A stretch of 64,000 nt of DNA from Pedobacter polaris (GTDB taxonomy: Bacteria; Bacteroidota; Bacteroidia; Sphingobacteriales; Sphingobacteriaceae), in the NCBI RefSeq assembly GCF_005116505.1, contig NZ_SWBR01000001.1:1054001-1118000 (forward strand). The letters run 5' to 3'. The notes beneath the pieces were generated by a model that had not been told where the DNA came from, did no database searches, and worked only from the letters and a program-made list of their open reading frames with translations. Below, in pieces: positions 4,907-57,953 of this stretch; the first letter of the stretch is position 1, and every line of letters starts with the position of its first letter. The position numbers and the translations under genes are program-made.

Positions 4907-5587
4907 ATGAATAAAATCTGCTTAACGCTTACATGTTTGTTTTTTGTTGCTAATGTTGGTGCTCAGAACTTTAATTCTGGACCCCAAGATGTACCTCAAG
5001 TAGGTACGGCAATTAATATTGCTGTCGCAACAAATGATGAATCTGGAGCAGATGAATTTTTTGAAGATGCGGATAGAAATGAACGTAGAGGTGATTTAAA
5101 TGAAGCTTTAACCTTATTTGGAAAGGCAGCATTTGAGTACAATAACGATAAAAAATTCAGCAGATATGGGGCTACATTGTTAAGAATGAGCAATGTACAT
5201 ATGTTGCTTACACATTATACAGAAGCGGAGCAAGTGGTATTAAATGCGGCTCTAAAAACATATTCGCGTATTGGTAGTAGAACCGGTCAGATGGCTTCTT
5301 ATAATCAACTTGGTAAAATTTATTTAGCTGCTAATAAATTTACACAATCAATGTGGTTTTATACTCAACAGGGCATATTAGCTCGTCAGTTAGGCAATAA
5401 CACATCCTATATAGACTCGGTGATAGGTTTAGCTTTGGTAAAGATCAAAAAGAAAGAATACAGTTTAGCAACTAAAGATCTAAACAGGGCTGAACTGTTA
5501 GCCAAAGCATCAAAAATTACTCAATTTAATCAACAGATTAAGAGTAATAGATCCATTATTGCAGAAAAACAAGCAGTAAAAAAGTAA
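4907..5587 (+). CDS. Secreted TPR-like protein
   Basis: 226 aa with a signal peptide (about 1-19, ending ANVGA before QNF). The rest is helical and consists of TPR-like units: ADRNERRGDLNEALTLFGKA, a middle unit around YTEAEQVVLNAAL, and KKEYSLATKDLNRAELLAKA. It starts 20 nt after the isoaspartyl peptidase stop and may be co-transcribed with cphB and iaaA. It resembles the sensor part of the histidine kinase downstream, so it could be an accessory periplasmic sensor, but no function can be assigned from sequence. Confidence 0.7.
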   Translation: MNKICLTLTCLFFVANVGAQNFNSGPQDVPQVGTAINIAVATNDESGADEFFEDADRNERRGDLNEALTLFGKAAFEYNNDKKFSRYGATLLRMSNVHMLLTHYTEAEQVVLNAALKTYSRIGSRTGQMASYNQLGKIYLAANKFTQSMWFYTQQGILARQLGNNTSYIDSVIGLALVKIKKKEYSLATKDLNRAELLAKASKITQFNQQIKSNRSIIAEKQAVKK

Positions 5588-5680: not shown

Positions 5681-5698
5681 ATACCCACTAGTAGGTAT
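5681..5698. promoter_or_regulatory. 18-bp palindromic operator before the histidine kinase
   Basis: ATACCCACTAGTAGGTAT is identical to its reverse complement at 16 of 18 positions. It ends 46 nt before the kinase start. The same pattern (ATACCC-N6-AGGTAT with a palindromic N6) occurs at 8931-8948. Two-fold symmetry and this spacing fit a dimeric NarL/LuxR-type regulator site, probably for the regulator encoded at 8267. Confidence 0.65.
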
Positions 5699-5744
5699 AT
5701 GGATTGAAACATATTTAATTAATTTTGAGATATTAACTAGCTCA

Positions 5745-7997
5745 ATGAAATTAATTCTCTCAATTGCATTTGCTTACTTCTTAGGCTGTTACCAAGCTAC
5801 AGCGCAAGATCAAAAAACGCTTGATAGCTTAAAACGAATACTGAAGAAATCAACGATTGTTGAGCAGGCTCAAAATCTCAATAAAATTTCATCAGCATAT
5901 TTTAGGGTTAATTTAGATAGTGCAATCTCTTACGGTAATAAATCAATAAATTTTTCTAATAAGCACAAAATTTATAAAGAATTGGCTGTAGGATATAATT
6001 ATCTAGGGCAAATGATATATTACAAGGGGAATTATGTAGCATCCTTATCAAATTTTGAAAAATTTAGGACGATTGCTCTTCAACTAAAGGATAATGTACT
6101 TATAGCTCAAGCTATAAACAATATTGCTGGTGTTTTAATAGATCAAGGTAAAACCGATGAAGCAATTCAAAAATATGAAGAGGTTTTAGCAATTAGTAAG
6201 AAAAACAATGATAAAAAGGGGCAATCACTTGGTTATGGGAATTTGGCATTTGCATATCGATATATTGGCAATAATGGTAAAGCGATTAGTTATATTTTTG
6301 AGCAGATAAAAATAGACGAGGAGATTAATAATAAGATGGGTTTGGCCTATTCTTACCAGCAACTAGTTCTGTTATACAATCAAAGGAATGATCTAGTAAA
6401 CACAAAGAAGTATTTAGATTTAAGCCTAAATAAGTTTCAGGAGCTAAATGATGGCAGGAACGTGGCGGTGAGTTATGATTTGTATGCCTCCTATTTTCAG
6501 AGTACCAATCATATTAAAAAAGCTATTGAATATGAAAAAATGGCAATAGACTTAGCAAATAAACATCAAGATAAGCGTTCTATAGCTATTTTTCAGTCAA
6601 AGCTATCCAATTTGTACTTTGAAGCCGAAGCTTTTGAGCTAGCAGAGAAAAATTTTGTTCAGGCTATAAATTTACATGAGTCTATAAATTTGCAAAAAAC
6701 TGTTGCAGGTGCATATATTGGTTATGGGAAATCATTATTAAAATTGAACAAACTAGAACAAGCCAAAAGTAATCTAGATAAAGGTTTAGCGATCGCTATT
6801 AGTCAAAAATCAGCAGTTGATAAAAGAAATGCTTACGAGGCATTGACAGAATATTATATTAAAATTAATGAGTCTAATCAAGCGATAAAAACTCAAAGAC
6901 AATATATCGCTGTTAAAGACAGCTTATTAAACGAGAGTAATAGCAAACAGATAAATGAGCTAAATACAATTTATCAAACTCAAAAAAAAGAGCAAAAGAT
7001 TTTATTATTAGATAAGCAAAATCTTATACAAGGATTAGAGCTAAACAAAAGCAAACTAGAGTTAGAAAATGAAAGTTTAGAGAATGACAAAAAGGCGCTG
7101 CAGATTAGCGAGCAGAATTTCATTCTTCAAAAAAATAAAGTGCTGATTGCACAAAAACAGATTGAAACAAGGGCAAAAGCGCAACAAATTAAATTACTAG
7201 CTACTCAAAATGAAGTACAAAAGTTAGAACTGCTTAAGCGCAATATTTTTTTAATAATAATTATAAGCATTCTTTTGGTTTCTATTTTATTGGCATATCT
7301 GTTTTATAGTCGCAATAAATTGAAACAGGAAGCTCGTTTACAAGATGAGGTAATCAAACAACAAGATCTTGCAACTAAAGCAATTTTAAATGCCGAAGAG
7401 AGTGAGCGTAAGCGGATTTCAAATGAATTACATGATGGCTTAGGACAAATGTTTTCTGCTGTAAAAATGAATTTATCTGCACTAACAGAAGATTTGAATT
7501 TTAAGAACGAACAGAGCAAGGACATGTTTGACAAAACATTGAGTCTGGTTGATGAAAGCTGTAAAGAAGTAAGATCGATTTCCCATCAAATGGCACCTAA
7601 TGTATTATTGAAATCTGGGTTGGCTACAGCGGTTAGAGATTTCATAAGTAAGATAGATTCTAGAAAACTAAAAATTAAGCTAGAAACTTTTGGACTTCAA
7701 GAAAGGTTAGATCAGAATATAGAGACTGTTTTATATAGAGTAATACAGGAAACAGTAAATAACGTAATTAAACATGCTGAGGCAAGTTCGTTAGATATTC
7801 AACTTAGCAAAGACGAAGAAGGCATTAATGCAATGATTGAGGATAATGGAAGAGGTTTTAACACAAGTGAATTAGAGAAATTTGAAGGTATTGGTTTAAA
7901 GAATATCAGAAGTAGGGTTGAATACCTGAAAGGGAGTGTTGATTTTTCTTCAACTCCTAGTAGTGGCACTTTAGTTGCAATATTTATACCTTTTTAG
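5745..7997 (+). CDS. TPR-containing sensor histidine kinase (HisKA_3 type)
   Basis: 750 aa. Order: signal peptide (1-20), about ten TPR-like repeats in the periplasm (about 30-400), a coiled coil (about 400-495), one membrane span (about 500-522), a HisKA_3 dimerisation domain with SERKRISNELHDGLGQ (phospho-acceptor H563) and a HATPase_c domain (N-box ETVNNVIKHA, G1 DNGRGF, GIGLKNIRSR). This is the NarX/DegS-like kinase class that pairs with NarL/FixJ regulators, and such a regulator follows 269 nt downstream. The ligand of the TPR sensor is unknown. An 18-bp palindrome sits 46 nt before the start and suggests feedback control. Confidence 0.93.
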   Translation: MKLILSIAFAYFLGCYQATAQDQKTLDSLKRILKKSTIVEQAQNLNKISSAYFRVNLDSAISYGNKSINFSNKHKIYKELAVGYNYLGQMIYYKGNYVASLSNFEKFRTIALQLKDNVLIAQAINNIAGVLIDQGKTDEAIQKYEEVLAISKKNNDKKGQSLGYGNLAFAYRYIGNNGKAISYIFEQIKIDEEINNKMGLAYSYQQLVLLYNQRNDLVNTKKYLDLSLNKFQELNDGRNVAVSYDLYASYFQSTNHIKKAIEYEKMAIDLANKHQDKRSIAIFQSKLSNLYFEAEAFELAEKNFVQAINLHESINLQKTVAGAYIGYGKSLLKLNKLEQAKSNLDKGLAIAISQKSAVDKRNAYEALTEYYIKINESNQAIKTQRQYIAVKDSLLNESNSKQINELNTIYQTQKKEQKILLLDKQNLIQGLELNKSKLELENESLENDKKALQISEQNFILQKNKVLIAQKQIETRAKAQQIKLLATQNEVQKLELLKRNIFLIIIISILLVSILLAYLFYSRNKLKQEARLQDEVIKQQDLATKAILNAEESERKRISNELHDGLGQMFSAVKMNLSALTEDLNFKNEQSKDMFDKTLSLVDESCKEVRSISHQMAPNVLLKSGLATAVRDFISKIDSRKLKIKLETFGLQERLDQNIETVLYRVIQETVNNVIKHAEASSLDIQLSKDEEGINAMIEDNGRGFNTSELEKFEGIGLKNIRSRVEYLKGSVDFSSTPSSGTLVAIFIPF

Positions 7998-8039
7998 TTA
8001 ATAATAGCTGAGCTGAAGCATCAACCCAGCTTAAATTAC

Positions 8040-8153
8040 TTACCTAATCAGGCCATTTAAGTCATCAACAATAGTATTGCCAACATGTATAATGTCACAA
8101 CCAACACTTGATGCTAAATCAAATAAAAACAACTGCATTTCGATTAATAACAT
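8040..8153 (-). pseudogene. Short antisense frame, possible gene remnant or small ORF
   Basis: In the 269-nt spacer between kinase and regulator, the minus strand has an ATG-started 37-codon frame containing LFDLASSVGCDIIHVG and ending NTIVDDLNGLIR. Its composition is protein-like rather than random AT-rich translation. No family is recognised, and no promoter or RBS is evident. It could be a decayed gene end or an unannotated small protein. Confidence 0.22.
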
Positions 8154-8266
8154 AAAATATATTTTATAAGCCAATCACCATAATTGGTTAAATAAATATA
8201 AAAAAAGAAAGCAGAATAAATAAATTGGTTTAAATATTTAAATATAATTCATTGTAAATTAGTGAG

Positions 8267-8902
8267 ATGGAAAATACGCTCTTAACAAATCTGTTTATTG
8301 TAGACGATCACCAATTGGTGGTTGATGGTTTACGTGCATTGCTAAACAATGAAAATAAGTATGCTATAGTTGGCTGTAGTAATCAGCCTAAAGATGTTTT
8401 ACCTATGCTTGATGAGTTAAAGGTAGATATCTTATTAACGGATATTAACATGCCTGAAATGTCTGGAGTTGAGTTAACAAGAAATGTAAAGAAAAAGCAC
8501 CCGAGTATTAAGGTATTAGCACTATCAATGTTTGGAGAACGACAAGTAATTAAAGAGATGATAGATGCAGGTATTTCTGGTTACATATTAAAAAATACGG
8601 GCAAACATGAGCTCTTAGAAGCATTGGATAAGTTAGCTAAAGGACAAACCTTTTTTAGTGAAGAAGTAACCAAAGAATTGATGAAATCTTTTAAGAACTT
8701 TGATGAGGTTCCTCATTTAACTAATAGGGAAGTAGAAATAATAAGATTAATAGAATGCGAAAATAGCAATAAGAAAATTGCCGACATGCTATTTATTAGT
8801 GAGCGCACAGTAGAAACCCATCGTAAAAATATTTTTAGAAAAACAGGTACACAAAGCCTAGTTGGCTTACTTAAATATGCTTATGAGCATAAAATTATAT
8901 AA
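8267..8902 (+). CDS. NarL/FixJ-family response regulator
   Basis: 211 aa. An N-terminal receiver domain (about 6-125) has the acidic pair DD at 13-14, phospho-acceptor D59 in LLTDINMPEMSG, and K109 in the conserved lysine region (YILKNTG). A C-terminal LuxR-type HTH (about 148-211) reads LTNREVEIIRLI and ERTVETHRKNIFRKTG. It is the evident partner of the HisKA_3 kinase at 5745. The two 18-bp palindromes at 5681 and 8931 are its likely binding sites, which is inference. Confidence 0.93.
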   Translation: MENTLLTNLFIVDDHQLVVDGLRALLNNENKYAIVGCSNQPKDVLPMLDELKVDILLTDINMPEMSGVELTRNVKKKHPSIKVLALSMFGERQVIKEMIDAGISGYILKNTGKHELLEALDKLAKGQTFFSEEVTKELMKSFKNFDEVPHLTNREVEIIRLIECENSNKKIADMLFISERTVETHRKNIFRKTGTQSLVGLLKYAYEHKII

Positions 8903-8918
8903 GCTTCTACCAGCTATT

Positions 8919-8948
8919 GGGTAGGTAAATATACCCTAGCTAAGGTAT
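8919..8948. promoter_or_regulatory. Palindromic operator array before the 9000 lipoprotein gene
   Basis: The core ATACCCTAGCTAAGGTAT (8931-8948) is palindromic at 16 of 18 positions and shares its outer bases, spacing and mismatch positions with 5681-5698. An extra GGGTA half-site at 8919-8923 forms a second overlapping inverted repeat with TACCC at 8932-8936. The core ends 51 nt before the start at 9000. Two sites of one pattern beside a kinase/regulator pair strongly suggest its regulon. Confidence 0.65.
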
Positions 8949-8999
8949 TGTGTTGCGGAGTACATTTTTGAACATTTGTGATATAAATTTAAATAAATC

Positions 9000-9467
9000 A
9001 TGAAAAAAATTACAACAATTCTACTGGTATTCACAATTTTAACAACTGTATTTATTTCTTGCAAGAAAGATGAAGAAACCACAGTTAAAGCGGCTGGTAC
9101 AGCAAGTGCAGATCTAAAAGTAGGTAGTGCAGCAAGTGTGGCATGGGTAGCAACAACAGCAACAGCAACAAAAGCTGGAACTAGTTATACAATTACCGCA
9201 ATTAATTCAACAGGAACTTTGGTAATTAAACTAGATAACGTGACAGCAGCAGGGACCTATACATTTACTACAGCAAATAGAAATGCAACTTTTACTACTG
9301 GAAGTAAAACTTATGGCACACTAAATAATGGAGGTGGCAATACAATAATTACAGCAATATCAGCAGATAAAATTGAAGGAACATTCTTCTGCGAAATGTT
9401 TGATGGTACTGCAACATCTGCTGTTTATTGTAACCTAGGGAATGGAAAATTCAGCGCATCATTCTAA
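9000..9467 (+). CDS. Small lipoprotein, DUF6252-like
   Basis: 155 aa with a lipoprotein signal (lipobox FISC, lipidated C21). The mature part is rich in Thr, Ala and Gly and has beta-strand character, including SYTITAINSTGTLVIKL and ADKIEGTFFCEMFDG. This resembles DUF6252-type Bacteroidota surface lipoproteins, whose function is unknown. It lies directly after the response-regulator gene and behind the second palindrome, so it is a candidate target gene of that system. Confidence 0.75.
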   Translation: MKKITTILLVFTILTTVFISCKKDEETTVKAAGTASADLKVGSAASVAWVATTATATKAGTSYTITAINSTGTLVIKLDNVTAAGTYTFTTANRNATFTTGSKTYGTLNNGGGNTIITAISADKIEGTFFCEMFDGTATSAVYCNLGNGKFSASF

Positions 9468-9499: not shown

Positions 9500-9718
9500 A
9501 TGAAAGCAGGTAATAAAGTAATTGATGTTTTAAGCAAGCGTGAAGTAGAAATTATAAAGTTGATAACACAAGAATTTAGTAATGAAGATATTGCGTCTCA
9601 TTTGGCTATAAGTAAGCGAACTGTAGAAACTCATCGTAAAAATATCTTTAAAAAAACAAAGGTTAAAAGTATTGTAGGTCTAGTAATGTTAGCCATTAAG
9701 AATAAGTTGGTTTCTTAA
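9500..9718 (+). CDS. Orphan LuxR-type helix-turn-helix protein (no receiver domain)
   Basis: 72 aa consisting almost only of a GerE/LuxR DNA-binding domain: LSKREVEIIKLI, SNEDIASHLAIS and KRTVETHRKNIFKKT. It is closely similar along its length to the C-terminal HTH of the response regulator at 8267 (REVEII.LI, RTVETHRKNIF.KT, S.VGL). It probably arose by partial duplication. Without a receiver it cannot be controlled by phosphorylation, so it may bind the same palindromes constitutively, as activator or competitor. It lies 32 nt after the lipoprotein gene, likely in the same transcript, and ends before a strong terminator. Confidence 0.85.
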   Translation: MKAGNKVIDVLSKREVEIIKLITQEFSNEDIASHLAISKRTVETHRKNIFKKTKVKSIVGLVMLAIKNKLVS

Positions 9719-57911: not shown

Positions 57912-57953
57912 ATGGTCAACCTAATACCACAAATTGGGTATTTGATTGACCAT
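57912..57953 (-). terminator. Probable terminator of the rarA-DUF5687-ABC operon
   Basis: ATGGTCAA / TTGACCAT (outer 8 bp) and AATACC / GGTATT (inner 6 bp) with symmetric 3-nt bulges, 78 nt after the ABC stop, T-rich on the minus strand. Confidence 0.6.

Follow-up and report, generated by a model that had tools for sequence, protein, structure and literature searches.

Candidate activator sites of a NarL-type regulator before a TPR kinase gene and dispersed genes of Pedobacter polaris

Two closely similar 18-bp palindromes lie upstream of a sensor kinase gene and of a lipoprotein gene of Pedobacter polaris, a member of a genus of soil and water bacteria, and a NarL/LuxR-type response regulator is encoded at the same locus (Table 1). 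The locus raises the question of which protein reads these palindromes, what they do at the promoters and how many genes carry them; it was analysed as part of a window of 64,000 nucleotides (contig NZ_SWBR01000001.1, positions 1,054,001 to 1,118,000). A first-pass annotation had proposed that the palindromes mark a regulon of the kinase/regulator pair. This pair is built like other TPR kinase/NarL-type pairs of Bacteroidota, with a secreted-type N terminus, TPR repeats and HisKA_3 in the kinase and an adjacent NarL-type regulator. Such pairs are abundant and their operators seem to be undescribed: the open-licence literature searched contained neither a described operator for them nor a description of the motif ATACC-N8-GGTAT. 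Here we provide the consensus of one such operator, its fixed spacing in the promoter and a list of candidate targets.

The palindromes of the locus and their conservation

Rechecking the sequence reproduced both palindromes letter for letter. In each 18-mer eight of nine pairs are complementary (16 of 18 positions), the mismatched pair is formed by positions 6 and 13 in both, and the outer six bases on each side are equal. The recomputed gaps to the start codons are 46 nt for the kinase and 51 nt for the lipoprotein, and the regulator gene does lie between these two genes, so the first description of the locus was accurate in all these respects. Both palindromes consist of two inverted 7-bp elements starting with TAC and separated by 2 bp (7-2-7), TACCCAC-TA-GTAGGTA before the kinase gene and TACCCTA-GC-TAAGGTA before the lipoprotein gene. 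Missed in the first pass was a third, weaker site in front of the proximal lipoprotein operator.

Table 1. Features of the locus, with coordinates in the window
Feature	Position	Strand	Description
Secreted TPR-like protein	4907..5587	+	upstream of kinase; constant neighbour at the locus
Palindromic operator ATACCCACTAGTAGGTAT	5681..5698		before kinase gene; genome-wide excess; kept in five genomes
Predicted -7 box TAATTTTG	5720..5727	+	kinase promoter; 21 nt past operator; TA..TTTG kept in alignment
Sensor histidine kinase	5745..7997	+	750 aa; signal peptide, TPR repeats, HisKA_3, HATPase_c
NarL/LuxR-type response regulator	8267..8902	+	211 aa; Response_reg and GerE; predicted as most likely operator reader
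Distal weaker operator CTACCAGCTATTGGGTAG	8907..8924		24 bp upstream of proximal operator; conserved
Proximal operator ATACCCTAGCTAAGGTAT	8931..8948		before lipoprotein/solo-HTH operon; genome-wide excess; conserved
Predicted -7 box AACATTTG	8971..8978	+	lipoprotein promoter; 22 nt past operator; conserved
DUF6252 lipoprotein	9000..9467	+	155 aa; candidate target gene
Solo GerE/HTH protein	9500..9718	+	72 aa; second gene behind lipoprotein promoter; second candidate reader

The same locus is present in P. boryungensis (G016), P. frigiditerrae (G279), P. planticolens (G359) and a further genome (G393). Both sites are kept in these five genomes, P. polaris included, in which the regulator is at least 88% identical and the two promoters can be aligned; locus L347 is a sixth case. 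In the five-genome alignments the half-sites ATACC and GGTAT are invariant before the kinase and the lipoprotein genes and the centre is variable, the predicted -7 box is found at the same distance in both promoters, and the distal site is conserved as TACC.GCT.TTGGGTAG. G279 and G393 carry a further palindrome before an extra kinase gene.

The kinase itself is mosaic-like. Compared with the P. boryungensis orthologue, identity is about 80-88% at the catalytic end and mostly only about 20-25% in the TPR sensor (residues about 40-500). From one orthologous locus to another, the sensor encoded behind this same promoter is of either a 750-aa or a 647-aa type. The gap between the kinase and regulator genes (7998-8266) measures about 270 nt here, about 257 nt in P. 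frigiditerrae and about 10-50 nt in other relatives. A decayed second kinase was considered as the content of this gap, but the search for a lost gene gave no convincing similarity.

Genome-wide occurrence and promoter geometry

A scan of the window with two mismatches allowed returned 24 matches where 21.9 were expected, which is no excess; the question was therefore put to the whole genome. In the 4.57 Mb of P. polaris, ATACC-N8-GGTAT occurs 25 times compared to 9 times for the reversed control. The stricter form ATACCNA-N4-TNGGTAT (ATACCNANNNNTNGGTAT) gave 11 occurrences versus 0, and ATACCYANNNNTRGGTAT with one mismatch allowed gave 16 versus 3. Bacterial genomes consist mostly of coding DNA, yet 15 of the 25 exact sites lie between genes. 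The usual gap between site and start codon is 33-70 nt, and many sites precede genes for signal-peptide proteins (signal peptides on most downstream proteins were judged by eye). The expectation that the motif would exceed random frequency and recur at similar distances before genes was thus borne out. At intergenic half-sites the inner A (position 7) or its partner T (position 12) is kept in 23 of 30 cases, at genic ones in 5 of 20, so that the true motif is about ATACCYA-N4-TRGGTAT. Another exact match in the window, ATACCACAAATTGGGTAT (57924-57941), is intergenic and lies 167 nt before a lipoprotein-like gene on the reverse strand.

The spacing between the palindrome and a promoter element was determined for 31 intergenic sites from P. 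polaris and two relatives, counting as a box any match to at least five of the six positions of the -7 consensus TAnnTTTG. The box peaks at exactly 22 nt past the palindrome (16 of the 31 sites), while the maximum in 500 shuffles was 5 at any offset. An independent set of 19 intergenic sites from other genomes, chosen on the palindrome alone, gave the same spacing: the box stands at 22 nt in 11 sites, compared to a shuffle mean of 0.56 and to one of 19 genic controls. Demanding a perfect TAnnTTTG beside the operator proved too strict and left only two matches in P. polaris. Across the family, operator-plus-box matches are found in 231 of 401 genomes and control matches in roughly 50 (a hand count of the table); some of the operator-plus-box matches inspected are genic.

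Conservation and spacing together rule out palindromes that arose by chance in an AT-rich genome. The near-expected number of matches in the window scan would fit such an origin, but the genome-wide counts of the exact and the strict motif, the retention in five genomes and the fixed spacing in the independent set contradict it, and we give it practically no credence.

In Flavobacterium psychrophilum the TAnnTTTG box spans -12 to -5 (PMC9723704), which together with the 22-nt spacing places the centre of the operator at about -43. A palindrome followed at a fixed 21-22 nt by a -7 box has the position of a class II-type activator site, and we infer that the operator stands in for the -33 element and that the site activates transcription. 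Alternatively, the sites could be repressor operators through which, for example, the kinase gene is negatively autoregulated. Many repressors bind directly beside a promoter, which is where the operator lies, and a site at -43 that overlaps the promoter could serve one; however, a repressor does not need a fixed phase of 21-22 nt, and a constant distance between the -7 box and an operator that covers the -33 region is typical of activators that replace this element. Repression therefore appears quite improbable.

The activator geometry resembles that of E. coli NarL (NarX/NarL) at ogt, where a regulator with a GerE-type output domain uses inverted 7-bp TAC elements with a 2-bp gap (PMC7419079). 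NarL activates ogt from such 7-2-7 sites, one of them centred at -44.5 by the -35 element and a second dimer site located upstream, comparable to the centre at about -43 and the distal site found here (PMC7419079). The two arrangements differ in that the upstream site of ogt is 33 bp away instead of 24 bp. Furthermore, the P. polaris system has a Bacteroidota promoter, a TPR sensor where the E. coli system has one for nitrate, and a solo HTH gene in the target operon. The half-site of NarL is TACYYMT, the one found here TACCYA.

The candidate readers of the sites

The 8267-8902 protein contains a receiver and a C-terminal HTH (Response_reg, 2.5e-26; GerE, 7.6e-17). In the 72-aa protein encoded at 9500-9718, GerE (2.9e-19) covers residues 9-65, and it is thus a GerE domain alone. 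In this it is similar to Bacillus GerE, a stand-alone GerE-domain regulator; unlike the latter, it adjoins a full response regulator and has the same recognition helix. This helix, RTVETHRKNIF, is identical in the solo HTH and the 8267 regulator (window copy; the P. boryungensis copy was aligned as well), and among the aligned GerE proteins of P. polaris it is restricted to these two.

The 8267 regulator is the natural candidate, since it is NarL-type, is encoded between both targets and is at least 90% identical in the three genomes with the highest counts. These counts of operator-plus-box matches on both strands are 11 in G393, 9 in G279 and 7 in P. polaris, the highest among the genomes compared for the regulator; the largest numbers of sites thus coincide with regulator orthologues of 90-91% identity. 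P. insulae (G022), in which the regulator is 78% identical, has the same recognition helix yet no excess of the motif (8 versus 7).

Because its recognition helix matches that of the regulator, the solo HTH is the second candidate. If it were the main reader, it would autoregulate its own operon and control the kinase and the dispersed genes. The distribution of the palindromes at the locus coincides exactly with that of the solo HTH gene. Both are present at seven loci (P. polaris, P. boryungensis, P. planticolens, P. frigiditerrae, G393, Pedobacter sp. PMG_085 and the Sphingobacteriaceae MAG locus L349), and both are missing at four loci that have the regulator (P. insulae, P. changchengzhani, G007 and the MAG locus L350). 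In L349 the lipoprotein gene is gone and the site and the solo HTH remain, which also agrees with this role, as does the identical helix. However, the association may mean only that the solo HTH gene is a target, and P. changchengzhani, which has no solo HTH at the locus, nevertheless shows a motif excess (13 versus 5) and a site before a caspase gene. We consider it unlikely that the solo HTH is the main reader.

More weight, although still with reservation, can be given to an operator shared by several paralogous NarL-type regulators, in which the 8267 protein is unprivileged and the local genes are partly under other kinase/regulator pairs. This possibility overlaps with the explanation that we prefer, which permits sharing. 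A site is found upstream of three of the nine HisKA_3 kinase genes of P. polaris, and Pedobacter genomes that have no close 8267 orthologue contain 4-6 operator-plus-box promoters. On the other hand, the recognition helices of other regulators of the genome differ (FTVTTHRRNIL, YTVDTHRKNM), distant regulator loci mostly have no site, and the local sites are retained only within the group of regulator orthologues with 84-91% identity. A close copy of the regulator is missing in 12 of the 17 Pedobacter genomes with high counts, so that similar sites must be read there by other regulators. These genomes, and the two other kinase genes with a site in P. polaris, argue that more than one protein probably reads the motif and that several NarL-type regulators probably share it. 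A general rule that every TPR kinase/NarL pair has a site was rejected, since a site was present at just one of 20 more distant loci and six of the nine kinases of P. polaris have none.

Taken together, we regard it as probable that the palindromes are class-II-type activator sites of a NarL/FixJ-family regulator, with inverted 7-2-7 half-sites TACCYAN most likely read by the 8267 regulator. This regulator or its small relative most likely binds the sites and turns on its own kinase gene and a set of secreted-protein genes.

Candidate target genes and the proposed mechanism

The palindromes probably mark a regulon, as initially proposed, and the two sites of the locus persist in five genomes; but the set of candidate targets is genome-wide and larger than the kinase and lipoprotein genes named at first, and two more kinase genes carry the site. 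One of these encodes a 7TMR-DISM kinase (C1:755.8k; site 70 nt upstream), the other a kinase on contig C11 (site 114 nt upstream, with one mismatch). Further candidate targets in P. polaris encode a thioredoxin-like protein, a DUF6252 lipoprotein, several proteins with no known domain and, behind a one-mismatch site, a VIT-domain protein. Apart from caspases, Pfam scans of the targets detected no shared family, and beyond likely secretion the targets have no common known function.

All three Peptidase_C14 genes of P. polaris have an exact palindrome 33-64 nt before the start (G000:C10:465549, G000:C11:22011 and G000:C1:1376409; loci L139, L140 and L316). Their products all have signal peptides and one has WD40 repeats, comparable to the known Peptidase_C14 metacaspases of prokaryotes, some of which carry WD40. 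The functions of such caspase homologues are described as largely unknown (PMC3501461). What is added to the known homologues is the shared upstream operator. In four Pedobacter genomes (P. polaris, G005, G279 and G393) 12 caspase genes encode a signal peptide and a site precedes 11 of these, a count in which two sites have one half-site mismatch, one required the first ATG to be skipped, and several genes look orthologous, leaving perhaps four or five independent cases of a link noticed post hoc. No site was found before caspase genes without a signal peptide (G279 C9, G396, G007) or before those of genus g39. The operator and its regulon are new, their type (NarL-type) is known, and the caspase link is unexpected; the shared site offers a first way into the question of when bacteria produce secreted caspases.

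In the mechanism that we propose, the TPR kinase would sense an envelope or nutritional signal and phosphorylate the response regulator. A dimer of the latter, bound to ATACCYA-N4-TRGGTAT centred near -43, would recruit RNA polymerase to promoters that keep the TAnnTTTG -7 box and in which the operator replaces the -33 element. The regulator would thereby raise the expression of its own kinase, of the lipoprotein/solo-HTH operon and of roughly twelve genes scattered over the genome, most of which encode secreted proteins, among them the three proteases of the caspase family. The solo HTH, which lacks a receiver domain and shares the recognition helix of the regulator, might then bind the same sites as feedback, either as a competitor or as a constitutive activator. 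With the consensus, the promoter geometry and the target list, direct tests of binding, of activation and of what the small solo HTH does become possible.

A more far-reaching and tentative idea is that a NarL-type palindrome followed after 21-23 nt by TAnnTTT forms a promoter class throughout the Sphingobacteriaceae, common to several two-component systems and a solo GerE protein. In Pedobacter this class might serve as the specific switch of secreted proteases of the caspase family and so couple TPR kinases that sense the envelope to caspases outside the cytoplasm.

A one-mismatch site at 1959-1976 of locus L138 (G000:C11:38858) is common to a divergently oriented pair of genes encoding a HisKA_3 kinase and an alpha-L-fucosidase.
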